A stretch of DNA of 64,000 nucleotides from Asticcacaulis tiandongensis. GTDB lineage: Bacteria > Pseudomonadota > Alphaproteobacteria > Caulobacterales > Caulobacteraceae. Every line of letters begins with the position of its first letter. Positions within the stretch are counted from its first letter, which is position 1. The notes below the pieces were generated by a model. It was not told the origin of the DNA, made no database searches, and was given only the letters and a program-made list of their open reading frames with translations. Below, piece by piece: positions 9,799-25,565 of this stretch. The position numbers and the translations under genes are program-made. The stretch spans positions 389,468-453,467 of the forward strand of contig NZ_ML636837.1 in assembly GCF_006475605.1 (NCBI RefSeq). The letters run 5' to 3'.

Positions 9799-10632
9799 TC
9801 AGGCAGCGTGCATTTCGCGGCGCTGCTTTTCACGTGAAACCAGTTCACGTGCCAGCTTCAGATAGGCCTGCGATCCGGTACATTTCAGATCATAGATCAG
9901 AGCAGGCTTACCAAAGGAAGGGGCTTCGGACACCCGAACATTACGCGGTATGACTGTCTCATATACCTTGTCGCCAAAGTGGCTGCGCACATCATTGGCC
10001 ACGTGTCCCGACAGAGCATTACGACGGTCGAACATGGTCAGAACAATGCCCTGAAGTTCAAGCTGAGGGTTCAGGCTGCCACGCACCAGATCAATGGTGC
10101 GCATAAGCTGACTAAGGCCTTCAAGTGCAAAAAACTCACATTGCAAGGGCACCAGCACTGCGTCTGCGGCGCTCATGGCATTGACGGTCAAGAGATTCAG
10201 TGAGGGCGGGCAGTCAATGAGGATATAACTATAGTTTACGCTGCCTTCGCGGCTCTGGTTTTCGATGGCGTCACGCAGTCGGTATGACCTGCGGTCAGCC
10301 TGACTAAGCTCAATTTCAACCCCCGACAGATCGGGATCGGACGGCAGAATAGACAAACCCGGCACAGAGGTTTTTATGGCAGAGTCATCGATAGATTTCT
10401 GATCGACGATCACATCATAAATGGTCGTGGTACGGGCCGATTTCGGCACACCCAGTCCCGTTGAGGCATTGCCCTGTGGGTCCATATCGATCAGCAGAAC
10501 CGTCTCGCCGACCGCCGCCAGAGCTGTGCCAAGATTAATGGCCGTTGTGGTTTTACCCACTCCACCCTTCTGGTTGGCAACCGCAAGCACCCGCGGCAAA
10601 GGTTTCGTGAGCTGAGAAGAATTATTTGACAC
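9799..10632 (-). CDS. parA: Chromosome-partitioning ATPase ParA
   Basis: This 277-residue ParA/Soj ATPase forms the nucleoid gradient that pulls ParB-parS complexes to the new pole. The deviant Walker A KGGVGKTT is at residues 22-29 and DMDPQGNASTGLG and LIDCPPSL follow. I chose the GTG at 10632, giving MSNNSSQ, because GGAG stands 8 bases before it. An in-frame ATG at 10659 would overlap rsmG by 38 bases and lacks a comparable ribosome site. It is in the rsmG-parA-parB run. Confidence 0.95.
   Translation of the reverse strand: MSNNSSQLTKPLPRVLAVANQKGGVGKTTTAINLGTALAAVGETVLLIDMDPQGNASTGLGVPKSARTTTIYDVIVDQKSIDDSAIKTSVPGLSILPSDPDLSGVEIELSQADRRSYRLRDAIENQSREGSVNYSYILIDCPPSLNLLTVNAMSAADAVLVPLQCEFFALEGLSQLMRTIDLVRGSLNPQLELQGIVLTMFDRRNALSGHVANDVRSHFGDKVYETVIPRNVRVSEAPSFGKPALIYDLKCTGSQAYLKLARELVSREKQRREMHAA
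9826..9841. promoter_or_regulatory. Degenerate parS-like site inside parA
   Basis: CTTTTCACGTGAAACC matches 13 of 16 bases of the parS palindrome, including the whole central CACGTG and flanking TTT/AAAC. It may be a weak ParB site or chance within codons. Confidence 0.35.
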
Positions 10633-11284
10633 GACGCACGCTCCGAATATGTACCACATGTCCCCGTTTATCGCTCAGGGATGTAAAACTGTCCGCCTCA
10701 AATCGCCACTGTTTGCGTGCCTCTGTGAGTTCGGCCTCTATGTTCTCACCCTTGAGAAACCAGCCCTCAGCGCCTCTGGCAAAAAAGGTTTCAGCATAGC
10801 CCAGCAGCTTCGGCAAAGGCGCCATTGCTCGCGCGGTAACGATATCTACGTTTAGTGAAACCTTTTCCGCCCGCTCATTGATGACCGTTGCCGGCAACTG
10901 AAACTTTTGCACAATCTCGCTCAAAAAGCGACAGCGTTTCTGCAAAGAGTCCACCAGATAAACGTGACCTGCCGTCTCTTGTGCATCTGACATATGCTTC
11001 AAAAGCATAGCCAATACCACACCGGGGAAACCAGCCCCCGCCCCAAGATCAGCCCAGCGCCTTGCCTTAGGCGCATGGTTCAACAACTGCGCACTATCAA
11101 GGACATGACGTGACCAATAGTTGGGTAAAGTGGCTGGACCTACCAGATTCATCACCTCATTGCGTTCAGACAACAACATGTGAAACTGATGAAGCTCCTG
11201 AAGCGCTTCCTGTTTCACGTGAAACACTAGCTGTGCAGCCATTTCCTGCGCCGTCATGGGGACGGTTTCATCAAAATTATTCAT
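10622..11284 (-). CDS. rsmG: 16S rRNA (guanine527-N7)-methyltransferase RsmG
   Basis: This 220-residue SAM-dependent enzyme (formerly GidB) methylates G527 of 16S rRNA. The SAM loop is [16 protein letters not shown], and MNLVG and VTARAMAPL are family motifs. The start overlaps the end of mnmG by 4 bases and its end overlaps parA only if parA uses its upstream ATG. A perfect parS site lies in its early codons, where it encodes FHVKQ, an insertion-like stretch ahead of the conserved domain. Confidence 0.96.
11211..11226. promoter_or_regulatory. parS: parS centromere site 1 (inside rsmG)
   Basis: A perfect match to the 16-base palindrome TGTTTCACGTGAAACA, the ParB loading site conserved across bacterial chromosomes. 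It lies about 7.9 kb from the origin-like gap. Confidence 0.95.
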
Positions 11285-13247: not shown

Positions 13248-13263
13248 TGTTTCACGTGAAACA
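13248..13263. promoter_or_regulatory. parS: parS centromere site 2 (mnmG/mnmE junction)
   Basis: A perfect TGTTTCACGTGAAACA between the mnmE stop codon and the mnmG start. It is the only one of the three sites outside a coding sequence. Confidence 0.95.
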
Positions 13264-13265
13264 CT

Positions 13266-14603
13266 CTATTTACCAATACAGAAGCTCGAGAAAATATGAT
13301 CCAGTACCTGCTCAACATCTGTCCGTCCGAACAAAGCATCAAAACCGGAAACGGCCTGGCGTAAATCTTCTGCCATTAGTTCCGGTGTATCGAACCCTAT
13401 CTGAAGGGCGCGCGTAAGTGCCGCGTCGACTTCACGCAAGCGTTCAACATGGCGCTCACGCGTCGCTGCCGGAAAAGTGTTGAGCGACAAGGATCGCTCA
13501 AGATGAGTCTGCAATGCGGAGACAAGTGTTTCAAGGCCTGTGCCTTGCATTAGATCGGTGTGATAATGCTCAAGACCTTTGGCTTTGGCAAATATATCCA
13601 GAGCAGAGTCTTCACCATCCTTATCGGCCTTATTGGCAATCAGATAATCCCCTTTGATAACGTCATAAAGGTCCGCTTCGAATGGCTCGGAACTATCGAT
13701 TACCCAAAGACGCAGATCCGCCGTTTCTCCCCTTAAGCGCGCGCGGCGTATACCTTCGGATTCCACAAGATCGGAAGTCTCGCGCAATCCCGCCGTGTCG
13801 TAAATCAAGGCCGTATAGGCACCGAGCCTGATAGGTGATTCAATCACATCACGCGTTGTACCGGCAATAGGCGTGACAATGGCGGCATCAGTTTGCAGCA
13901 GGGCATTGAACAGGCTCGATTTCCCAGCGTTAGGCTTACCCATAATGGCAATACGATAGCCTTCGCGAATTTGACGGCCCCTCTGGGAGTCCTGAAGGCC
14001 ATCCGCAATTTCACTTTTTAGCTGAGCGATATCGGCGGTAATTCGATCGCTTAGGCTTTGAGGGATATCTTCATCTGGAAAGTCCACCAACGCTTCTATA
14101 TGCGCCAGTATAACAATCAGGCGCGCGCGCCAGTCAGTATACCGCGCTTTGAAACCACCGCCCAGTTGGGTCAAAGCCTGCTGACGCTGCGCTTCAGACT
14201 CAGCTTCAACAAGATCGGAAATGGCTTCAGCCTGAGTCAGGTCAAGCTTTCCGTTTTCAAACGCCCTACGTGAAAACTCCCCCGCCTCCGCGTGCCTTAG
14301 TCCAAGATCACGTAACACGGCGTAAAGCTTATCCAATACGGCCAAAGAACCATGCACGTGAAACTCAGCACAGTCTTCACCCGTGAAGCTTTGCGGACCT
14401 TTAAAAAAAAGTGTCAGGGCTTCGTCGATCAGTTTTGAGCCCGCCTTAAGCTGACCAAAGCTGGCAAACCGTGGCTTCGGCAAACGACCCAACAAAAGTC
14501 TTACAACCTCGGCAGATTGCGAACCCGATACCCGAATAACCGCCACACCAGCACGGCCCTGCGCTGATGCCAAAGCAAATATAGTCTGTTTCACGTGAAA
14601 CAC
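13266..14603 (-). CDS. mnmE: tRNA-modifying GTPase MnmE
   Basis: This 445-residue protein partners MnmG in wobble-uridine modification. It has the formyl-THF-binding N-terminal domain (TIFALASAQGRAGVAVIRVSG), an inserted G domain with P-loop GKPNAGKSS and switch GTTRDVIE, and the terminal catalytic motif FCIGK. The GTG start at 14603 makes the first codons read MFHVKQ, and those codons are a perfect parS site. The family normally begins close to the TIFALAS segment, so the parS codons are an N-terminal add-on. Confidence 0.96.
   Translation of the reverse strand: MFHVKQTIFALASAQGRAGVAVIRVSGSQSAEVVRLLLGRLPKPRFASFGQLKAGSKLIDEALTLFFKGPQSFTGEDCAEFHVHGSLAVLDKLYAVLRDLGLRHAEAGEFSRRAFENGKLDLTQAEAISDLVEAESEAQRQQALTQLGGGFKARYTDWRARLIVILAHIEALVDFPDEDIPQSLSDRITADIAQLKSEIADGLQDSQRGRQIREGYRIAIMGKPNAGKSSLFNALLQTDAAIVTPIAGTTRDVIESPIRLGAYTALIYDTAGLRETSDLVESEGIRRARLRGETADLRLWVIDSSEPFEADLYDVIKGDYLIANKADKDGEDSALDIFAKAKGLEHYHTDLMQGTGLETLVSALQTHLERSLSLNTFPAATRERHVERLREVDAALTRALQIGFDTPELMAEDLRQAVSGFDALFGRTDVEQVLDHIFSSFCIGK
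14587..14602. promoter_or_regulatory. parS: parS centromere site 3 (first codons of mnmE)
   Basis: A perfect TGTTTCACGTGAAACA covering codons 1-6 of mnmE. It lies about 4.5 kb from the origin-like gap, the nearest of the three. Confidence 0.95.
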
Positions 14604-14614
14604 TGTTCCTGAAT

Positions 14615-14866
14615 TTAAGGCGCTTTAAAGCCACCCATACCAGCGGTTGCCGCCGATTGCATCAGTTTCATAAACTGATCCTGCGCCTGAACACCAAAGC
14701 TCGACCAGGTCTTGAGAATTTCTTCAGGCTGCATCTGGTTAATATTTTGTTCAACCCGTTGCTTCATTTGATCAACCATAAAGTCATTCAGGGTCTCGAC
14801 ATTTGGTAAGCCCAAAAAGGTGCGGGCTTCCAACGGCGTGCATTCAATATCAATCGTAACCTTCAT
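14615..14866 (-). CDS. Small DUF6489-family protein
   Basis: This 83-residue protein starts MKVTIDIECTPLEARTFLGLPNV, the opening I associate with the alphaproteobacterial DUF6489 family found between rho and mnmE. The rest is helical and Gln/Met-rich, ending in a Gly/Ala tail. There is no signal peptide or membrane segment, so it is cytoplasmic. Function is unknown. It lies between a strong rho terminator and mnmE on the same strand and may be the first gene of the mnmE operon. Confidence 0.75.
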   Translation of the reverse strand: MKVTIDIECTPLEARTFLGLPNVETLNDFMVDQMKQRVEQNINQMQPEEILKTWSSFGVQAQDQFMKLMQSAATAGMGGFKAP

Positions 14867-16950: not shown

Positions 16951-17907
16951 CTATACCCCCTTACCGATTTGGCTCAGAACTTCATCCGCCAGCGCAGTGA
17001 TAAACCCTTTGTCTGTCCCCAGAGCCGGAATGCGGTGATAGGCTCTGGCCCCCGCCTCTTCGGCCAGTTCGCGATACTCGATATCAAGTTCTACAAGGGT
17101 TTCAATATGTTCGGAAACAAAGGCAATCGGCACCACGACCGGAATTTTGCCCGCCGTAACGGTCTCTATTATGGTTTCGTCTGTAGAAGGCCCTATCCAT
17201 TTCAGCGGCCCGACACGGCTTTGATAACAGATCAGGTGATCGATAGGCATCCCAAGATCAGCTATAATCGCCGCCACGGTCTGCTCAACCTGCTGCTGAT
17301 AGGGATCACCGGCCAGAATGATCTTTTCGGGTAAGCCATGCGCCGAAAACAACAATCGGTGTTGTGAGACATCAAGTCCCTCAAGACCTTTACGGATAAG
17401 ATTAATATGGGCCGCAATGAACTTAGGGCTTACCGGATAGTCTTTAATATATCTGACAGGGGCCTTGCCTTTGTAGTGCTTTTTAAAGTCGACAAAGGCC
17501 GTTTCAGTCGTCGTCGTTGAGAACTGCGGATAAAGCGGCAGAGCGATAATTTCATCCGCCCCCCACGCCTCAAGATCACTAATCGCTTCCGAGATAAACG
17601 GATGCCAGTAACGCATACCGATAAAGGTCTTGAATTCGGCCTGACCCGTTGCGTTCAGTTCAACCTCAAGCGCATTAGCCTGATCCTGCGTCAGCGCGAC
17701 AATCGGCGATCCGCCACCCATCAGGGCATAGTTAGCCTGAGCTGACTTTTCGCGTCGTGTTGAAATCAGCCAGGCCACCGCCTGTCGAAAGCCGGCCGGC
17801 AAGCCAATAATGAAAGGATCGCTGAACAGATTATACAGAAATGGCCTGACATCAGCCTGAGTCAGAGGCCCGCCCAGATTAAACAGAACGACCGCAACTT
17901 TTTTCAC
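16951..17907 (-). CDS. hemH: Ferrochelatase
   Basis: This 318-residue enzyme inserts Fe2+ into protoporphyrin IX to make haem. The N-terminal VVLFNLGGP, the porphyrin-side LPLYPQFSTTT and the metal-site histidine in LLFSAHGLPEKI are all present, as is the acidic FVSEHIETLVELDIEY. It lies between hemE and hemJ with one- and two-base gaps, a tight operon for late haem synthesis. Confidence 0.97.
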   Translation of the reverse strand: MKKVAVVLFNLGGPLTQADVRPFLYNLFSDPFIIGLPAGFRQAVAWLISTRREKSAQANYALMGGGSPIVALTQDQANALEVELNATGQAEFKTFIGMRYWHPFISEAISDLEAWGADEIIALPLYPQFSTTTTETAFVDFKKHYKGKAPVRYIKDYPVSPKFIAAHINLIRKGLEGLDVSQHRLLFSAHGLPEKIILAGDPYQQQVEQTVAAIIADLGMPIDHLICYQSRVGPLKWIGPSTDETIIETVTAGKIPVVVPIAFVSEHIETLVELDIEYRELAEEAGARAYHRIPALGTDKGFITALADEVLSQIGKGV

Positions 17908-17908
17908 C

Positions 17909-18934
17909 TTAACCTCTTATGCGTTTAAGGGTCTGTTCGACGTGAGCAATCGGCGTATCCGGAAAGATGCCATGACCGAGATTGAATATATAAGGCCCCT
18001 GCCCCCACGCCTCAAGCAGACGATCAATAGCGGCATCAAGCGCCTTACCACCCGAACGTAAGACGACCGGATCAAGCGCCCCCTGAATGGGTCTGATTTT
18101 CTGCAATGCCTGGCCAAGCTCAAGCGGTGTTGCCGTCCCGAGCGCCTGAGCCTGAATATCGACAGCTTGTGCATACTGAAGCGAACACGCCTCAGCCCCA
18201 CGCGGAAAACCGATGACTGGCAAATTCACACCCAGTTCGCGCACACGGGCAATCAAACGCTTATGCGGTTCAATAACCAGTTGGGCGAACAAGGGATCAG
18301 GAAAACCCTCAGCCCAGCTTTCGAAGATCTTCAAAACCTGTGCCCCTGACTGCGCCTGCATCAGAAGATATTGTGCTGAGGCCTCGATAACGACATCTAA
18401 AAGCTGCGACACAAGTTCGGGTTGCTCATAAACAAAACTGCGGATCAGCGACCGGTCATGAGCTTTGCGGCCATTCAGCATATAGGTCATGACAGTCCAG
18501 GGCCCGCCACAGAAACCGATCAGTGTCGTTTCCTTAGGCAATTCCGAACGCAGTATCTTCAGGGTTTCACCGACTTTAGCCAGATACGCCCCCGCCGAGC
18601 CTGCCTTATCGGCCATAAGCGCCATAGGCGGTAAGTCACCCAATATGGGGCCCTCACCCGCTTCAAACCGTACATCCTGACCAAGGGCCATAGGGATGAC
18701 GAGAATGTCTGAAAACAGAATAGCCCCGTCCATGCCATAGCGTCTTACGGGTTGCAGGGTCGCTTCAGCGGCTTTTTCAGGGTTGAGACAAAAGCTAAGA
18801 AAATCAGGTGTTGTCGCCCTGAGTTCGCGATATTCCGGAAGATGGCGTCCCGCTTGACGCATAAACCAGACAGGGGGCGTTTTCAGTGTTTGACCTGAAA
18901 GAACGGATAACAGAGGTGGCATAGGTTCCGACAT
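17909..18934 (-). CDS. hemE: Uroporphyrinogen decarboxylase
   Basis: This 341-residue TIM-barrel enzyme decarboxylates uroporphyrinogen III to coproporphyrinogen III. The signature PPVWFMRQAGRHLPEYRE is at the N-terminus, followed by FSDILVIP and the GFCGGPWTV loop. It is the first gene of the haem operon and transcribes away from the origin-like gap, as hemE does beside Cori in Caulobacter. Its promoter must lie in that gap. Confidence 0.98.
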   Translation of the reverse strand: MSEPMPPLLSVLSGQTLKTPPVWFMRQAGRHLPEYRELRATTPDFLSFCLNPEKAAEATLQPVRRYGMDGAILFSDILVIPMALGQDVRFEAGEGPILGDLPPMALMADKAGSAGAYLAKVGETLKILRSELPKETTLIGFCGGPWTVMTYMLNGRKAHDRSLIRSFVYEQPELVSQLLDVVIEASAQYLLMQAQSGAQVLKIFESWAEGFPDPLFAQLVIEPHKRLIARVRELGVNLPVIGFPRGAEACSLQYAQAVDIQAQALGTATPLELGQALQKIRPIQGALDPVVLRSGGKALDAAIDRLLEAWGQGPYIFNLGHGIFPDTPIAHVEQTLKRIRG

Positions 18935-18966
18935 AGGTCAACTCATAGGCTTAAGGCTGAATGACC

Positions 18967-18998
18967 TCAATCTAATAATAGAAATATAAATAGATTGA
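18967..18998. repeat. Inverted repeat next to hemE
   Basis: TCAATCTA (18967-18974) and TAGATTGA (18991-18998) form a perfect 8-base inverted repeat around an AT-only-like 16-base loop, 33 bases upstream of the hemE start. It could be an operator at the hemE promoter or part of the origin. Confidence 0.6.
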
Positions 18999-19060
18999 AG
19001 AGGTAGTAGAGGGCTTAAGAGTGCGGAAAATCGTCGCAGCCGTAAGACTTATATCTGGTT

Positions 19061-19109
19061 TTTCACAGCCATATCTTAACAGAATCTTAATTTTCCAAAG
19101 GCTGTGAAA
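19061..19109. repeat. 10-base inverted repeat enclosing a CtrA box
   Basis: TTTCACAGCC (19061-19070) and GGCTGTGAAA (19100-19109) are exact reverse complements. The 29-base spacer contains the CtrA box at 19076-19090. The left arm overlaps the DnaA-box-like TTTTTCACA. Confidence 0.85.
19076..19090. promoter_or_regulatory. CtrA box a
   Basis: TTAACAGAATCTTAA is a perfect TTAA-N7-TTAA. Its spacer contains a GANTC methylation site (GAATC). Confidence 0.8.
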
Positions 19110-19120
19110 TGTTTGGATAA

Positions 19121-19135
19121 TTAACTAATCGTTAG
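19121..19135. promoter_or_regulatory. Near-consensus CtrA box b
   Basis: TTAA-CTAATCG-TTAG differs from the CtrA consensus by one base and is followed by a GANTC site. Confidence 0.5.
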
Positions 19136-19141
19136 GAATCC

Positions 19142-19156
19142 TTAACAAAAATTTAA
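19142..19156. promoter_or_regulatory. CtrA box c
   Basis: TTAACAAAAATTTAA is a perfect TTAA-N7-TTAA. A further near match (TTAA-N7-TAAA) begins three bases later at 19159. Confidence 0.8.
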
Positions 19157-19182
19157 AGTTAAATTTGCGTAAATTTTTATGG

Positions 19183-19197
19183 TTAATGTTTTCTTAA
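19183..19197. promoter_or_regulatory. CtrA box d
   Basis: TTAATGTTTTCTTAA is a perfect TTAA-N7-TTAA, the third in about 120 bases. Confidence 0.8.
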
Positions 19198-19322
19198 CAT
19201 ACCCACAGAATGTCAGACCGGATTATCCCGATTTTACGACCATGGGGAAAACGATGGGGTAATCCGAGGGCTTATTAACGCTCATCCTCAGGCCTTGCAC
19301 ACTACCGCGAATTGCCTGATGA

Positions 19323-19342
19323 TTGTGCGCATATTGTACGCA
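19323..19342. repeat. Tandem 9-base direct repeat near the PPRP start
   Basis: TTGTGCGCA (19323-19331) and TTGTACGCA (19334-19342) are an 8-of-9 direct repeat one helical turn (11 bases) apart. This is the layout of a dimeric or cooperative protein site. Confidence 0.5.
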
Positions 19343-19387
19343 ACTATCCCGCCCTTATCCCCAATAGCTGTACACAGATTTATTTAA

Positions 19388-20239
19388 ATGGCCGCATCCC
19401 CTCCCCGCATCGGTACCTATTTCCACGTACATCTGGTTTCAGATTCCACGGGCGAGACCCTGAACGCGCTGGCCAAGGCCGCCGCCGCGCGGTTTGAGGA
19501 TATTTTCCCGATAGAGCATATCTATGTGCTGATCCGGTCGGAAAAGCAGCTCGAACGCGCCTTGCAGGAAATAGAGAGTTTTCCGGGCATTGTGCTGCAT
19601 ACCATGGTTGATATGGATTTGCGGACAACGCTCGAAACCCGCTGTCGTGAGCTGGATATTCCAACCATTGGCGTGCTTGATCCATTGGTTGTGGCCTTTT
19701 CCCGCTATCTGGGGGCCGCCATGTCCAAGCGTATCGGCGCTCAACACAATCTGGACAATGAATATTTTGAGCGTATCGAAGCGCTGAACTATGCCATTGC
19801 CCACGATGATGGCGCGGCAGCCGATAAGTTACGGCAGGCGGAAATCATTCTGATCGGCGTTAGCCGGACATCGAAAACCCCGACCTGTATCTATCTGGCC
19901 CATCGCGGCTATAAGGCCGCCAATATTCCATTGGTGCCGGGTCAGTCCCTGCCCGATACGCTGGATGAACTGACTGAACCGCTGGTGGTCGGGCTGATCG
20001 CCTCACCTGATCGCCTGATTCAGATACGTAAGGCCCGTCTTCTGACCTATAATGACGATCGGCCAACGACCTATACGGATTCAGAGGCTGTCCGCGAAGA
20101 AATCATCGCCGCGCGTCGTTTGTTTGAACGTAAAGGCTGGCCGGTTATTGACGTGACCCGCCGTTCCATCGAAGAAACTTCGGCAGCGATCATAAGTTTG
20201 CTGAACGAAAAGCGCACAGGCCGCCTTGGCGGTATCTGA
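19388..20239 (+). CDS. Kinase/pyrophosphorylase regulating PEP synthase or PPDK (DUF299)
   Basis: This 283-residue bifunctional regulator belongs to the DUF299 family, which phosphorylates and dephosphorylates pyruvate,phosphate dikinase or PEP synthase. HLVSDSTGETL is the family opening and the P-loop-like GVSRTSKTPTCIYLA is central. The C-terminal TYNDDRPTTYTDSEAVREEI fits too. It is the first gene on the right side of the origin-like gap. A homolog occupies the same place in Caulobacter, as far as I recall. Confidence 0.92.
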   Translation: MAASPPRIGTYFHVHLVSDSTGETLNALAKAAAARFEDIFPIEHIYVLIRSEKQLERALQEIESFPGIVLHTMVDMDLRTTLETRCRELDIPTIGVLDPLVVAFSRYLGAAMSKRIGAQHNLDNEYFERIEALNYAIAHDDGAAADKLRQAEIILIGVSRTSKTPTCIYLAHRGYKAANIPLVPGQSLPDTLDELTEPLVVGLIASPDRLIQIRKARLLTYNDDRPTTYTDSEAVREEIIAARRLFERKGWPVIDVTRRSIEETSAAIISLLNEKRTGRLGGI

Positions 20240-20268
20240 TACGCCCTGTATGACAAGAGTACGCCTAT

Positions 20269-20865
20269 ATGACATCACCCCTGATACTGGCCTCCGGTTC
20301 CAAAATCCGCGCGTCCCTGCTGACCGGATGTGGTCTGAGCTTTGTAAAAAAACCCGCCGACATAGACGAAGACGCCATCAAGGATGACTGTCTCGGTCGT
20401 GGCTTTTCGCCCAAGGCCGTGGCCATGAAGCTGGCTGAGGAAAAGGCACGGCACATTTCCTTACAGTCAGACGGACTGGTAATTGGTGCGGATTCGGTTC
20501 TGGAACTGGAACGTGATCTGATCAGCAAACAAAAAACCCTTGCGGATGCTGCTGATCTGCTGCGCCGTTTTTCGGGTAAGACACACCATTTGCATTCAGC
20601 CGTCGCTATGGCGCAAAAAGGTGAGATATTGTGGTCGCATGTCGATACGGCAGATATGTCCGTGCGGCGTTTAAGTGAGACATTCATCGACCACTATATC
20701 TCACAAGCTGGTGATGAGATTCTGGCCAGTGTTGGCTGCTATATGCTCGAGGCGCACGGCGTGCATCTGTTTGACAGCATCAAGGGCGACTACTTTACCG
20801 TTCTGGGCCTGCCACTTCTGCCACTTCTGGCTCAACTCCGTCATTATGAGGTAATACCGGCATGA
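20269..20865 (+). CDS. maf: Maf-family nucleotide pyrophosphatase
   Basis: This 198-residue protein hydrolyses non-canonical or excess nucleoside triphosphates. LILASGSKIRASLLTGCGL is the Maf N-terminal motif and VIGADSVLELE, FSGKTHHLHSAVA and SIKGDYFTVLGLPLLPL complete the signature. Maf proteins prefer dTTP/UTP or m7GTP; which one is not clear here. Its stop overlaps the aroE start by 4 bases, so the two are translationally coupled. Confidence 0.92.
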   Translation: MTSPLILASGSKIRASLLTGCGLSFVKKPADIDEDAIKDDCLGRGFSPKAVAMKLAEEKARHISLQSDGLVIGADSVLELERDLISKQKTLADAADLLRRFSGKTHHLHSAVAMAQKGEILWSHVDTADMSVRRLSETFIDHYISQAGDEILASVGCYMLEAHGVHLFDSIKGDYFTVLGLPLLPLLAQLRHYEVIPA

Positions 20866-21713
20866 GTAACCCGCTTAATTTTCCCACGGGTGCCGCTATG
20901 GTTGCCGGTGTTGTTGGCCAGCCGATTCATCATTCCCTGTCGCCGTTTCTGCATACGGCCTGGATCAGACATCTGGGTTTGAATGCGGTCTATGTCCCGT
21001 TTGGCCCTAAGGATGAGCACGGTTTTGAGCGACTGATCCTGTCTTGCCGCACTAATGGCGTGCGTGGTCTGAATGTAACCGCGCCGTTTAAGGAAATCGC
21101 GCTAAAATTGGCCGACAGTTACAGCGATATCGCCCATAATTCAGGCTCGGCCAATCTCCTGACCTTCGATGATGAGGGCCATATCCATGCCGATTCAACC
21201 GATGGCCATGGTCTGATCAGGGCATTTGCCCTGCAGGCACCGGCATGTGACCTTACGTCAGGGGCGGTAACACTGCTCGGAGCCGGTGGAGCATCACGGG
21301 CAGTGGTGGCCTCGCTTCTGCGTCTCGGCTGCAATGACGTGCGCATCGTCAACCGCACCGTTGCCCGTGCCGAAGAACTGGTCTTTGCCTTCAAAGATAA
21401 GGTTACGGCCTACGGTCTTACGGATGTAGAAAAAGCCTTTGCGGGATCGGTTGCGGTTATCAATGCCGCATCCGGCGGCCCCTTACCCCCCCTTACAGGC
21501 CTTGATCAGTCGGCGTGCGTCATGGACATGACCTATCGCCCCCTGAAAACGGCGTGGTTACAGGCCGCTGAAAATGCCGGTCTGGGTATTGTCGATGGTC
21601 TGGGTATGCTGATCGAACAGGCGCGTCCGTCATTTGAAGCCTTTTATGGTGTTGCCCCCGATGAGGCTCAGGACGTCAGGCGACTGGCGCTCAATTTCCT
21701 CGGTGAAGCATGA
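20862..21713 (+). CDS. aroE: Shikimate dehydrogenase
   Basis: This 283-residue NADP-linked enzyme reduces 3-dehydroshikimate in the shikimate pathway. The substrate site GQPIHHSLSPFLH and the catalytic Lys region GLNVTAPFKE are in the N-terminal domain. The nucleotide loop LLGAGGASRAVVASLL follows, then NRTVARAEEL and DGLGMLIEQA. It overlaps maf upstream and coaE downstream by 4 bases each. Confidence 0.96.
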   Translation: MSNPLNFPTGAAMVAGVVGQPIHHSLSPFLHTAWIRHLGLNAVYVPFGPKDEHGFERLILSCRTNGVRGLNVTAPFKEIALKLADSYSDIAHNSGSANLLTFDDEGHIHADSTDGHGLIRAFALQAPACDLTSGAVTLLGAGGASRAVVASLLRLGCNDVRIVNRTVARAEELVFAFKDKVTAYGLTDVEKAFAGSVAVINAASGGPLPPLTGLDQSACVMDMTYRPLKTAWLQAAENAGLGIVDGLGMLIEQARPSFEAFYGVAPDEAQDVRRLALNFLGEA

Positions 21714-22300
21714 TCCATATAGGCCTGACCGGTTCCATAGGTATGGGCAAATCGACCGTCGCCCAGATGTTCAGGGATGAAAGTATTCCGGTATCTGATG
21801 CTGATCAGGTGGTTCACCAGCTCTATACGCAGTCTAAACCGCTGAAATTAGCCCTGACCGAAGCCTTTGGCGATGTTTTGACCAATGAGGTTGTCGACAG
21901 GGCCAAATTGTCTTCGCGTTTGCAGGCAGATACCAAAGGTTTTTCGCTTCTTGACGCGATTGTCCATCCCTATGTGGCCGCAGAACGAGACCGGTTTGTG
22001 AAGACGAACCGTGAAGCGGGTACCAGGCTTATTGTCTCGGACATACCGCTTCTGTTCGAAACGGGCGCAGAGGCGCAGTTTGACAAGGTCGTGGTCGTGA
22101 GCGCTCCCCCTGAGGTGCAAGCTCAACGTGTTTTGGCACGTCCGGGCATGACATCTGAGAAATTCGCGCAAATCCTCAGTCGCCAGACGCCGGATACTGA
22201 AAAACGTCAGCGTGCAGATTTTGTCATCAATACGGGTCAGGATATTGAGGCAACACGCGCCGAGGTCAGGGCGCTTATCAACCGGCTAATTGGTGAATAG
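21710..22300 (+). CDS. coaE: Dephospho-CoA kinase
   Basis: This 196-residue P-loop kinase performs the last step of coenzyme A synthesis. GLTGSIGMGKSTVAQMF holds the Walker A, DADQVVHQLY is the substrate lid, and DIPLLFETGAEAQFDKVVVV is the core. It is the third gene in the maf-aroE-coaE run and starts inside aroE's stop. Confidence 0.96.
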   Translation: MIHIGLTGSIGMGKSTVAQMFRDESIPVSDADQVVHQLYTQSKPLKLALTEAFGDVLTNEVVDRAKLSSRLQADTKGFSLLDAIVHPYVAAERDRFVKTNREAGTRLIVSDIPLLFETGAEAQFDKVVVVSAPPEVQAQRVLARPGMTSEKFAQILSRQTPDTEKRQRADFVINTGQDIEATRAEVRALINRLIGE

Positions 22301-22335
22301 CTGGACAAGCGGCAAAAAGAGATTCACAAACAACT

Positions 22336-23037
22336 ATGGCCAGAGAAATCGTCCTTGATACGGAAACCACCGGCATTGACCCCAAAAAAGGGCACCGCCT
22401 GATCGAAATCGGCTGCCTTGAGATCGAAGACCTGCTTCCGACGGGCCGGACCTTCCACCGCTATGTCAATCCGGAACGCCTGATTGAACCGGACGCGATC
22501 CGTGTGCATGGCATTACCGATCAAATGGTCGCCGATAAGCCGAAATTTGCCGAAATAGTCGATCAGATGCTTGAGTTCATCGGGGACTCTAAAATCATCG
22601 CGCACAACGCGGCCTTTGACCGTGGCTTCGTGAATATGGAACTTGAGCGGCAAAATCGTGGGCCGCTTGTCACCGAACAATGGATTGATACGCTGGAAAT
22701 GGCCCGTCACCGCTTTCCGGGTATGGCCAATTCGCTTGATGCCCTGTGTAAGCGGTTTAATATTTCGCTGGCTGAGCGTGACAAACACGGGGCCTTGCTC
22801 GATGCCCGTCTATTGGCCGGCGTCTATCTTGAGCTGCATGGCGGTAAGGAGCGCGGGCTTGATCTGGCGATGGCCGGAAGCGTCGGTGCGAGTGGACAAC
22901 CGCTCGAAGCCGTCGACTATGGGGTGCGGCCCAATCCCCTGCCCTCATTTATTCATCCCGAAGAAGCTGAAGCGCATCAGGCCTTTTGCCTCAAGTTTCT
23001 GAAAGATAAAAACCTTTGGGGTTATCAGACGCAATAA
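22336..23037 (+). CDS. dnaQ: DNA polymerase III epsilon subunit (proofreading exonuclease)
   Basis: This 233-residue protein carries the three DEDDh exonuclease motifs: LDTETTGIDP, AHNAAFDRGFVN and HGALLDARLLA. It edits errors during replication. The C-terminal tail after residue 190, ending with a Trp-Gly-Tyr stretch, would bind the polymerase alpha subunit. A bidirectional hairpin separates it from convergent secB. Confidence 0.95.
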   Translation: MAREIVLDTETTGIDPKKGHRLIEIGCLEIEDLLPTGRTFHRYVNPERLIEPDAIRVHGITDQMVADKPKFAEIVDQMLEFIGDSKIIAHNAAFDRGFVNMELERQNRGPLVTEQWIDTLEMARHRFPGMANSLDALCKRFNISLAERDKHGALLDARLLAGVYLELHGGKERGLDLAMAGSVGASGQPLEAVDYGVRPNPLPSFIHPEEAEAHQAFCLKFLKDKNLWGYQTQ

Positions 23038-23066
23038 AAAAGGGCAGGTAATGAACCCGCCCTTTT
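23038..23066. terminator. Bidirectional terminator between dnaQ and secB
   Basis: AAAAGGGC (23038-23045) pairs with GCCCTTTT (23059-23066). A-rich and T-rich flanks on the two sides let it work for both converging genes. Confidence 0.8.
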
Positions 23067-23073
23067 GAGACCC

Positions 23074-23583
23074 TTAAGCCTGACCCTGAGTTTGCTGGGC
23101 GGCCAGATTGTCTTTTTGCTGAAGATACAGCGTCCCGAAATCAATCGGCTCAACAAAGAACGGCGGGAAGAAGCCGCCATCTGACGTCACGTCAGCAATA
23201 ATGCGACGGGCAAACGGGAACAGATAGCGCGGGCATTCCACCAGCAGGGTGGGTTCAATCATCTGTTGGGGCACATTCGCCAGCTGGAACAGGCCACCAT
23301 AGACCAGTTCAATGGCAAATACGGCGCCATCTGGATTGCTGGCCTTAACGGTGAGCTTCAGGTCAACTTCGAACAGACCATCCGGACGACCTTTGGCGTT
23401 CATTTCAACGCCCATATCGATTTCCGGACGAACCTCCATACGCAGCGACTCCGGCGCGCGTGGATTTTCAAAGGAAAAGTCGCGGATAAACTGGGCAACC
23501 ACCTGCATATTAGGCGGCAGAGTCGTTGTACCTGAGGTTTCCAGAACCGTTTGCCCGTCGCCGGGTGTTGCGTTATCGGTCAT
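23074..23583 (-). CDS. secB: Protein-export chaperone SecB
   Basis: This 169-residue tetrameric chaperone holds preproteins unfolded and hands them to SecA. The core includes [30 protein letters not shown] and [25 protein letters not shown], all well conserved. I chose the ATG at 23583 (MTDNATPGD). The open frame continues 13 residues upstream, but those residues are unlike the family. The C-terminal tail is Gln-rich. Confidence 0.96.
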
Positions 23584-23766
23584 AAGCCTATGTGCTCCAT
23601 TATATTCAGGGCGGTGGCGCACGCCTTTAATTCCGCCTGTTCAAAAAGGCCCCTATCACGCATAAAATGTAATGGCAATCAAACGAACGGTTCCACTTCT
23701 GTAAACTTCGCCTATATAGGATAGGAAACCAATTGTCTTATCACCCGTCCGAGGGCTTTTTATACG

Positions 23767-24393
23767 ATGTCATGGGATCTGGTCATCCTTGCGGTTATTA
23801 CTGTTGTGGTACTGTTTCAGCTTTATAATGTGCTGGGCAAGCGCGTTGGGCTGAAGGCCGAAGATAAGGCCGGTGCGAAAAAGCCAGAGGAAAATGAAGG
23901 CGCTGTGCGTATTGAACGGGCACCTGAAACCGTGCGCATCCCCAATCTGGAAGTATTGAAAACCCGTGACGCCAATTTCAATGAAATCAATTTTCTTGAA
24001 AAGGCACGCGAAGTTTACGAACAGATCGTTCTGGCCTTTAACCGCGGTGAAGTGAACAGTGTTAAGGAACGTCTGTCGGATACCGTCTATAAGGTTTTCT
24101 CTGACGCCGCCGCCGCCCGCAGTGACGACGCCAAAAAGCAGGTCGTGAAATTTGTTGATACGCCCAAGGCTGACATCGACACCATCGATTTCAAGGATGA
24201 TCTGGCGCAGGTACGTGTGCGCTTCCTGTCGGAACTGGTCTATGAAACCCGTACACCTTCTGATGAGGTCGGCAAACCCGACGCGGTCAGCAGCGTTCAT
24301 CGCCGCACAGCGGAATACTGGACGTTCCAGAAAACCCTGAAAACACCAAACCATCCGTGGATGCTCATTAAGGTAGAGGCGGCCAAAGCGTGA
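23767..24393 (+). CDS. Tim44-domain membrane-anchored protein
   Basis: This 208-residue protein has one N-terminal membrane helix (LVILAVITVVVLFQLYNVLG), a charged linker and a Tim44-like C-terminal domain with FLEKAREVYEQIVLAFNRGE and RRTAEYWTFQKTL. The family (TimA) is common beside secB in alphaproteobacteria and is a proposed adaptor at the inner membrane. In Caulobacter the neighbour beyond it is dnaA, as I recall; here it is mltA. Confidence 0.88.
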   Translation: MSWDLVILAVITVVVLFQLYNVLGKRVGLKAEDKAGAKKPEENEGAVRIERAPETVRIPNLEVLKTRDANFNEINFLEKAREVYEQIVLAFNRGEVNSVKERLSDTVYKVFSDAAAARSDDAKKQVVKFVDTPKADIDTIDFKDDLAQVRVRFLSELVYETRTPSDEVGKPDAVSSVHRRTAEYWTFQKTLKTPNHPWMLIKVEAAKA

Positions 24394-25565
24394 GGTCAGC
24401 AGGTTTCTGGCTTAAAACCGTAGCCTTAACGGGCACGGCCCTATGGCTAACGGCCTGCGTCCAGACGCCGAAACCTCCTGTAACTCCGCCGGTTACACCT
24501 CCGGTCACTGTACCGGTGACGCCACCGACAACGCCAACTGATCCCCTGCCCTATATCCCTGCGCACCAAAGGCTATCAACCTTGCCCGGTTGGGAGACAA
24601 GTGATGCCTTTATTGCGCTTGAGGCTGTGCGTGGCACCTGCGCCTATCGCAGTGGCCGTCAGTATGCAGCGATATGTGCCGAACTGGCGACAAGCCATTT
24701 TGAATCACCAGAGGAAATTAAAAACTGGCTTCTCGCACGGTTCAGAATTGAACGGATTGAGGGCGAAGGTCTGTTGACGGCCTATTTTGTCCCTGAATAT
24801 CCGGCAGTCAGTGTGCCGAACGACGAATTTTCGCAACCCGTAAGGCCTCGGCCTGCTGATCTTGAAATGGTCGATGGCGCGAGAATGAGCCCGCCGCAAA
24901 CCTCTGGCGTTCTGGTGGCTGCGCGGCGTGAAAATGGGCGTTACGTGCCCTATTATGGGCGCGCTGAGATCGAAGCGCAGCCAGCTACGGGTGCGACGCT
25001 TTATATGCGGCCGGAAGATTATTTCTTTATGCAGATTCAGGGGTCGGGATTTCTGACCCTGCCGGATGGCAAGCGTGTTCTGGCGGCCTATGCGGCCAAC
25101 AACGGACTGCCCTTTGTCGGCATTGCGCGTGTGATGACGGACCGGGGCATATTGGCGGCAGATCAGTCTTCCGGCGAAAATATCCGTAAGTGGCTGGCAG
25201 CCAATCGTGGCGCGGTCGCTCAGGAAATGATGAACCAGAATCCGCGTTATGCGTTTTTCACGATTGATACGACGCGTATGGAGCCTTTGGGGGCGGCGGC
25301 TGTACCCTTACCGGCGGGTTCAGCCATAGCGGTTGACCCGGCACATCATGCCTATGGCGACCTGTACTGGATTGATGCCGATGCTGGTGCACTGAAGAAC
25401 GCCTTCCCGACCTATCAGCGCATGGTTTCGGCGCTGGATACAGGTGGCGCGATTAAGGGTAAAGTCAGGGCCGATCTCTATATGGGTATTGGTGATCGGG
25501 CGGGTCTTGAGGCCGGTCGGGTGAAACACAGCTTACGCAAGTGGCGCATTGTACCGGCCCGCTAA
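24390..25565 (+). CDS. mltA: Membrane-bound lytic murein transglycosylase A
   Basis: This 391-residue lipoprotein cleaves peptidoglycan glycan strands. It has a GTG start, a lipobox LTAC followed by VQTP, and a linker of repeated PPVT units. The MltA domain follows with GLLTAYFVPEYPA and the conserved FFMQIQGSG. The C-terminal 3D domain contains the catalytic-Asp motif DTGGAIKG...RADLYMG. It overlaps the Tim44 gene by 4 bases, so the two are coupled. Confidence 0.94.
   Translation: MRSAGFWLKTVALTGTALWLTACVQTPKPPVTPPVTPPVTVPVTPPTTPTDPLPYIPAHQRLSTLPGWETSDAFIALEAVRGTCAYRSGRQYAAICAELATSHFESPEEIKNWLLARFRIERIEGEGLLTAYFVPEYPAVSVPNDEFSQPVRPRPADLEMVDGARMSPPQTSGVLVAARRENGRYVPYYGRAEIEAQPATGATLYMRPEDYFFMQIQGSGFLTLPDGKRVLAAYAANNGLPFVGIARVMTDRGILAADQSSGENIRKWLAANRGAVAQEMMNQNPRYAFFTIDTTRMEPLGAAAVPLPAGSAIAVDPAHHAYGDLYWIDADAGALKNAFPTYQRMVSALDTGGAIKGKVRADLYMGIGDRAGLEAGRVKHSLRKWRIVPAR

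Follow-up and report, generated by a model that had tools for sequence, protein, structure and literature searches.

The evidence gathered here argues strongly that the 453-bp gap between hemE and the PPRP gene is the chromosome replication origin of Asticcacaulis, and a real origin of the Cori type. The initial annotation had proposed a Cori-like origin at this place, and the proposal is now backed by GC skew, by parS sites, by conservation of the flanking genes and by a footprint common to 25 gaps. This type of locus is already known, and the Asticcacaulis gap is a layout variant of it; in the literature searched (titles and beginnings of abstracts, with most subscription papers lying outside) we found no analysis of the Asticcacaulis origin. 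The window, that is, the whole 64,000-nucleotide stretch of DNA analysed, corresponds to positions 389468-453467 of contig C15, in a genome of 3,219,428 bp assembled in 22 contigs. The gap and its flanks are as follows (window coordinates).

18935..19387, no strand: gap with the inferred Cori-type origin, 453 bp, 38% GC versus 54% for the window
17909..18934, minus strand: hemE, uroporphyrinogen decarboxylase, origin flank (PF01208, E 2.7e-95)
19388..20239, plus strand: PPRP/COG1806 kinase-pyrophosphorylase gene, origin flank (PF03618, E 4.2e-91)

The gap is gene-free and the genes on its two sides diverge, as first described. This divergent hemE-COG1806/PPRP arrangement is the one that characterizes the alphaproteobacterial hemE-COG1806 class of chromosomal origins. 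The genome belongs to Asticcacaulis: the PPRP protein is 82-87% identical to its best 15 named loci, all from this genus, and several of these loci have a gap identical to one from genomes classed in the same genus as the window. The gap also displays the above-average AT content and low-stability core of this class: no other 100-bp stretch of the window is as unstable as 19102-19201 (nearest-neighbour sum -112.9, versus a mean of -146.9 and a standard deviation of 6.6), which is likely to be the unwinding element. Since five other stretches of C15 are less stable, we consider stability as supportive, not diagnostic.

A switch in GC skew, another property of hemE-COG1806 origins, was found at this locus both in C15 and in a sampled relative. 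We pieced contig C15 (756 kb) together from 36 stretches plus the window, and its cumulative GC skew reaches its minimum at window position 18682, about 250 bp from the gap, while a two-segment fit places the change point at 20325. The minimum is broad, values within 60 counts of it spanning 17715-25012, and it falls just inside hemE. The GC-skew check suggested with the initial annotation thus comes out in its favour, as far as one contig allows. The relative G013, a single contig of 3.706 Mb, was sampled with 20 stretches of 20 kb, one per 185 kb: all ten stretches between 740 and 2405 kb have negative skew, the sign is positive from 2590 kb on, and PPRP lies at 2510 kb. The opposite flip falls between 555 and 740 kb, half a chromosome away from the PPRP locus. 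One of the 20 stretches departs slightly from this two-arm pattern (3515 kb, -0.003).

The parS pattern TGTTTCACGTGAAACA has three perfect occurrences in the genome, all within 4.3-7.7 kb of the gap, as is expected of parS near an origin. Their neighbours are parA-like, gidB, gidA and mnmE genes.

11211..11226, no strand: parS TGTTTCACGTGAAACA, perfect
13248..13263, no strand: parS TGTTTCACGTGAAACA, perfect
14587..14602, no strand: parS TGTTTCACGTGAAACA, perfect
9799..10659, minus strand: parA-like ATPase gene of the origin-proximal cluster (PF13614/PF01656)

A search for RepC (PF03428), as a mark of a repABC-type second replicon, returned no match in this genome.

Could the origin lie elsewhere, for instance beside dnaA, the gap being an AT-rich promoter region? 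The dnaA gene, encoding a protein with both the ATPase and helix-turn-helix domains, is located about 80 kb from the gap.

C15:328108-329562, outside the window: dnaA

With oriC placed at the hemE/PPRP locus, its distance to dnaA is 72-200 kb in all 17 Asticcacaulis genomes that carry the two on a single contig; the remaining 8 of 25 genomes have them on separate contigs. By contrast, three of the 17 records (G010, G015 and G022) start at dnaA or within 410 bases of it, 156-176 kb from the hemE/PPRP origin. In Caulobacter, according to the available text of PMC4221894, an inversion put dnaA 50 kb nearer the origin in NA1000 than in K31. Besides the three records that begin at dnaA, an origin elsewhere would draw support from two perfect overlapping CtrA boxes (TTAA-N7-TTAA-N7-TTAA) at C15:327731-327756 (locus L130), 352-377 bp upstream of dnaA, and from a similar pair, one perfect box and one with a single mismatch at the same 11-bp spacing, at -571/-560 before dnaA in L167, one of 20 relatives whose upstream regions were compared unaligned. 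However, the skew of C15 falls steadily through dnaA without a turn, the skew flips, the parS sites and the conserved footprint all indicate the gap, and none of the other 20 upstream regions read has such a perfect pair. We thus regard an origin away from the gap as highly improbable. In the same unaligned comparison, L170 has one perfect box at -787 and L157-L160 have one-mismatch boxes near -418; a conserved second CtrA target before dnaA is unsupported, two perfect overlapping boxes being present in none of the 20 relatives.

We defined a CtrA box as TTAA-N7-TTAA and a near box as one with at most one mismatch. The genome encodes GcrA and a CtrA orthologue (C15:751901-752506) that is 93% identical over 202 residues to a CtrA probe sequence. 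The three perfect boxes and two near matches initially reported in the gap were counted again; all five are there, the near ones with one mismatch each.

19076..19090, no strand: CtrA box S1, TTAACAGAATCTTAA, perfect
19121..19135, no strand: CtrA box S2, TTAACTAATCGTTAG, one mismatch
19142..19156, no strand: CtrA box S3, TTAACAAAAATTTAA, perfect, 21 bp from S2
19159..19173, no strand: near CtrA box S4, TTAAATTTGCGTAAA, one mismatch
19183..19197, no strand: CtrA box S5, TTAATGTTTTCTTAA, perfect

Such a cluster, typical of a Cori of the Caulobacter crescentus type, is hardly produced by base composition. Dinucleotide shuffles of the gap contain a mean of 0.06 perfect boxes, with three or more in none of 20,000 shuffles, and five boxes with at most one mismatch in 0.36% of them. 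Of the 76 tiles of 453 bp in C15 that are AT-rich (AT content of at least 0.58), those clear of the gap have at most one perfect box, and up to five with at most one mismatch. The 3.22-Mb genome totals 37 perfect boxes, a modest excess over the 28 matches to the reversed control pattern; the gap accounts for three of the 37, and no second 453-bp stretch in the genome has three. A count of four boxes at window 14435-14753 includes one palindromic stretch read twice.

We then compared the gap with its counterparts in other species. Among the 119 relatives searched, 118 have PPRP, and gap DNA was taken from 24 of the same genus and 45 others. We left out 16 loci with gaps identical to another, L022 and L023 (no hemE match) and the near-duplicate L051, as well as L055, L056 and L072 (3 of the 45), where hemE was not found in the fetched stretch; the remaining 42 of 45 have a divergent hemE. 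The resulting alignment comprises 25 distinct Asticcacaulis gaps including that of the window, which form 11 clusters at 80% identity; the window gap is 46-56% identical to the other 24. S5 is perfect in all 25 gaps. S3 is perfect in 16 and has at most one mismatch in 24, and S2 has at most one mismatch in 23 gaps and is perfect in none. Every one of the 25 gaps keeps S2 and S3 21 bp apart, and S3 and S5 41 or 42 bp apart. In the S1 area, a box with at most one mismatch was found in 19 gaps (search within 9 bp on either side), 45 bp from S2 in 14 of them and 39 bp in 5; the array is not phased as a whole, because S1 is missing in 6 gaps and variably placed otherwise, and because S2 is never perfect. 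S4 has at most one mismatch in 6 of 25 gaps and is probably not a conserved site. The boxes (at most one mismatch) span 117-123 bp in total in 21 gaps, over the AT-rich core, and 78, 97, 97 and 234 bp in the others.

The most conserved block of the alignment overlaps S2:

19115..19129, no strand: most conserved block, genus consensus GGATAATTAACCAAA, here GGATAATTAACTAAT

Its weighted conservation is 0.98, versus a mean of 0.66, and GGATAATTAAC[CT]AA occurs in 22 of 25 gaps. Neither GATAATTAAC nor AATTAAC[CT]A, two parts of this block, was found in the 42 gaps of other Caulobacterales. Read on the minus strand, the GGATAATTAACCAAA block contains TTATCC, with which a DnaA box begins.

The DnaA-box-like sites mentioned by the initial annotation are a fair description in that near matches exist, but a loose one, the gap having no exact TTATCCACA or TGATCCACA. 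The matches are as follows.

19059..19067, plus strand: DnaA-like box TTTTTCACA at the left edge of the AT-rich core; CACA (19064-19067) in 25/25 gaps, full TTTTTCACA in 18/25
19112-19120, minus strand: TTATCCAAA, within one mismatch of TTATCCACA
19199..19207, plus strand: DnaA-like box ATACCCACA beside S5; CACA (19204-19207) in 25/25 gaps, CCACA in 10/25
19243..19248, minus strand: W-box TCCCCA; TGGGGA near there in 14/25 gaps
19355..19363, plus strand: W-box-type site TTATCCCCA, within one mismatch of TTATCCACA; TCCCC here in 18/25 gaps
19373..19376, plus strand: CACA of a PPRP-proximal DnaA-like half-box, in 25/25 gaps

The CACA at 19204-19207 lies six bases past S5. Degenerate DnaA boxes (anything within one mismatch of TTATCCACA) are present in 11 of 25 gaps. 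W-boxes, found in the C. crescentus-type Cori, are present: TCCCCA occurs twice in the gap (19243, minus; 19358, plus), versus 0.07 expected from its density in the window, and is lacking in two of the 25 gaps (L002 and L011). The G-box TGATCCACA, also part of that type of Cori, is found in none of the 25 Asticcacaulis gaps with one mismatch allowed.

How far does this locus follow the Cori of C. crescentus? Our map of the Caulobacter sites derives from a review and from locus L054 (genome G057, same family), which we typed as Caulobacter-type only by its exact TAACGCTCTGTT; the accessible part of PMC4285127 gives this as the IHF sequence of the C. crescentus Cori. In the 521-bp gap of L054, CtrA boxes are at positions 67, 88, 211, 259 and 468, and a further one at 263 overlaps the box at 259; the box at 468 is next to TGATCCACA. 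This layout agrees with the five-site, G-box picture of Cori in the portions available of PMC4468827 and PMC1914354. The likeness with the C. crescentus Cori extends to the divergent flanks, the similar gap size, the clustered CtrA boxes, the weak DnaA boxes including TCCCCA, the presence of parS within 8 kb and a CtrA box near a DnaA-type box. In contrast, Asticcacaulis has no G-box, no hemE-side pair and no PPRP-side CtrA/G-box composite, its boxes (at most one mismatch) are in 21 of 25 gaps confined to 117-123 bp instead of the 416 bp of the Caulobacter-type L054, and it has the GGATAATTAACCAAA core, which was not found in the 42 gaps of other Caulobacterales.

The view that the same scheme is preserved here is therefore true in part: the CtrA boxes and their adjacency to a DnaA half-box are kept as a principle, but the positions and the G-boxes are not, S4 recurs in 6 of 25 gaps, and nothing can be built on the GANTC sites. 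Taken literally, as a Cori in which all five C. crescentus CtrA sites have stayed where they were, it would account for the shared flanking genes, the five boxes with at most one mismatch and the W-box-type sites. It does not agree with the positions, since the boxes of the window gap are at 141-248 of 453, away from the Caulobacter-type positions of L054; nor does it agree with the genus, where 1 of 25 gaps has a box within 120 bp of hemE and none has one within 130 bp of PPRP, with the G-box and S4 counts given above. This literal version is already largely refuted by position, and we give it little chance of being right.

As for GANTC, the two sites reported are present (19082 and 19136), but a meaning as parts of the switch did not hold: two do not clearly exceed the number that chance would give (0.73 per 453 bp in C15), and the sites are poorly conserved, a GANTC within 8 bp of these positions being found in 4 and 6 of the 25 aligned gaps, respectively, the window included. 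We thus ruled out GANTC as part of the switch. For IHF, whose site overlaps a CtrA site in the C. crescentus-type Cori, the window gap contains no exact copy of the 13-letter consensus, and copies with one mismatch are poorly conserved, reaching at most 6 of 25 gaps at any one place; some of these arise from a TTAACA-N5-TTAA CtrA box alone.

We propose that the gap is the origin of the C15 chromosome, where DnaA opens the AT-rich core and a compact array of phosphorylated CtrA keeps it shut until CtrA is lost, and we hold this working to be very probable as a whole. CtrA silencing is suggested here by homology, and binding, helical phasing, repression, opening and cell-type timing are predictions made from sequence. 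DnaA would act from the weak edge boxes (TTTTTCACA on the left, ATACCCACA on the right, and the W-box-type sites further right) inward, and would open approximately 19102-19201. Phosphorylated CtrA on S1, S2, S3 and S5 (122 bp) would cover the AT-rich core and abut the right DnaA half-box. With about two helical turns between S2 and S3 and about four between S3 and S5, the CtrA dimers on these boxes would lie on one face of the helix. In the non-replicating cell type, the occupied array would bar DnaA and leave the core closed; once CtrA is lost, initiation would be licensed, and the new origin would then be segregated by ParB bound to the three parS sites. The strongly conserved Asticcacaulis array would in this respect be a second architecture, in which CtrA excluding DnaA may be set against CtrA holding the unwinding element shut.

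In the C. crescentus model presented in the available text of PMC4468827, CtrA sterically excludes DnaA from the weak boxes at Cori. According to the same text, the normal cycle of C. crescentus was only slightly perturbed when all five CtrA sites were weakened; because of this mild effect, CtrA may be no main timer, but rather a stress or back-up brake.

Alternatively, the origin may well be at the gap while the CtrA boxes serve chiefly to control the two divergent promoters, of hemE and of PPRP, rather than initiation. Divergent genes do flank the gap, and the text available of PMC4468827 mentions that CtrA may also act via transcription at Cori. However, S2-S5 sit on the least stable stretch, away from the gene starts, S5 precedes a CACA by six bases in all 25 gaps, and our sigma-70 scan of the gap gave one promoter-like match, at chance level, other promoter types being outside its reach. 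A role mainly at the promoters is in our opinion unlikely, if somewhat less so than a Cori preserved in place. A terminator scan of the gap found none.

CtrA-box enrichment spans the family and is weaker across the order, with changing layouts. The 21 dereplicated gaps of other Caulobacteraceae contain 51 CtrA boxes (at most one mismatch), versus 1.5 in shuffles, and 18 of them have at least two. In other families of the order the enrichment is moderate (33 boxes versus 5.9 in shuffles), with at least two boxes in 8 of 20 gaps, and in the five gaps from outside the order it is absent (3 versus 6.0). The other Caulobacteraceae show a hemE-proximal box in 9 of 21 gaps, a PPRP-proximal one in 7 and a G-box (one mismatch) in 9. 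The central array is not unique to Asticcacaulis, since several of these gaps have fewer, central boxes, and neither is the absence of a G-box, since only 9 of the 21 have one. Box pairs 21 bp apart occur twice in the 21 gaps and four times in the 20, whereas shuffles average 0.0 and 0.03 pairs at 20-22 bp; as this makes six pairs in all, the recurrence is a lead and not a law.

Further away, in the accessible part of PMC1914354, the hemE/COG1806 origin of Rickettsia prowazekii and the COG1253/hemE origins of Wolbachia, Ehrlichia and Anaplasma are predicted by motif counts. These share a hemE-flanked intergenic origin, with CtrA, DnaA and IHF sites predicted in many of them. The second flank differs in Anaplasmataceae; the comparison covers the flanks and the kinds of sites.

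More speculatively, Caulobacterales origins may keep the CtrA-silencing logic while repeatedly rewiring it, the 21-bp box pair acting as a mobile module. In Asticcacaulis this would have led to a same-face clamp on the unwinding core with a box by the DnaA half-site, instead of boxes guarding scattered DnaA boxes, and GGATAATTAACCAAA might serve as clamp anchor or as contact with the opened strand. We put this forward as a tentative idea that is more easily doubted than believed.

Two inverted repeats are present in the gap. A perfect 10-nt repeat combines TTTCACAGCC at 19061-19070 with GGCTGTGAAA at 19100-19109 (minus strand), and the CTGTG of the latter partner is found in 23 of 25 Asticcacaulis gaps. 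An imperfect 14-nt repeat, TCAATCTAATAATA/TATAAATAGATTGA, lies at 18967-18998 near the hemE start, with a two-mismatch CtrA box at 18975 within it; it is possibly an eroded CtrA site, the Caulobacter-type gap of L054 bearing a CtrA pair there.

Elsewhere in C15, the only other cluster of five CtrA-like boxes (at most one mismatch) is at C15:749232-749334, upstream of a Flp/Fap pilin gene (C15:749451-749624, 57 residues, PF04964, E 7.5e-22). It resembles the CtrA-controlled pilA promoter of Caulobacter; since CtrA targets pilA in C. crescentus, as stated in the available text of PMC11264516, this cluster provides a modest positive control that the motif means CtrA in this genus.
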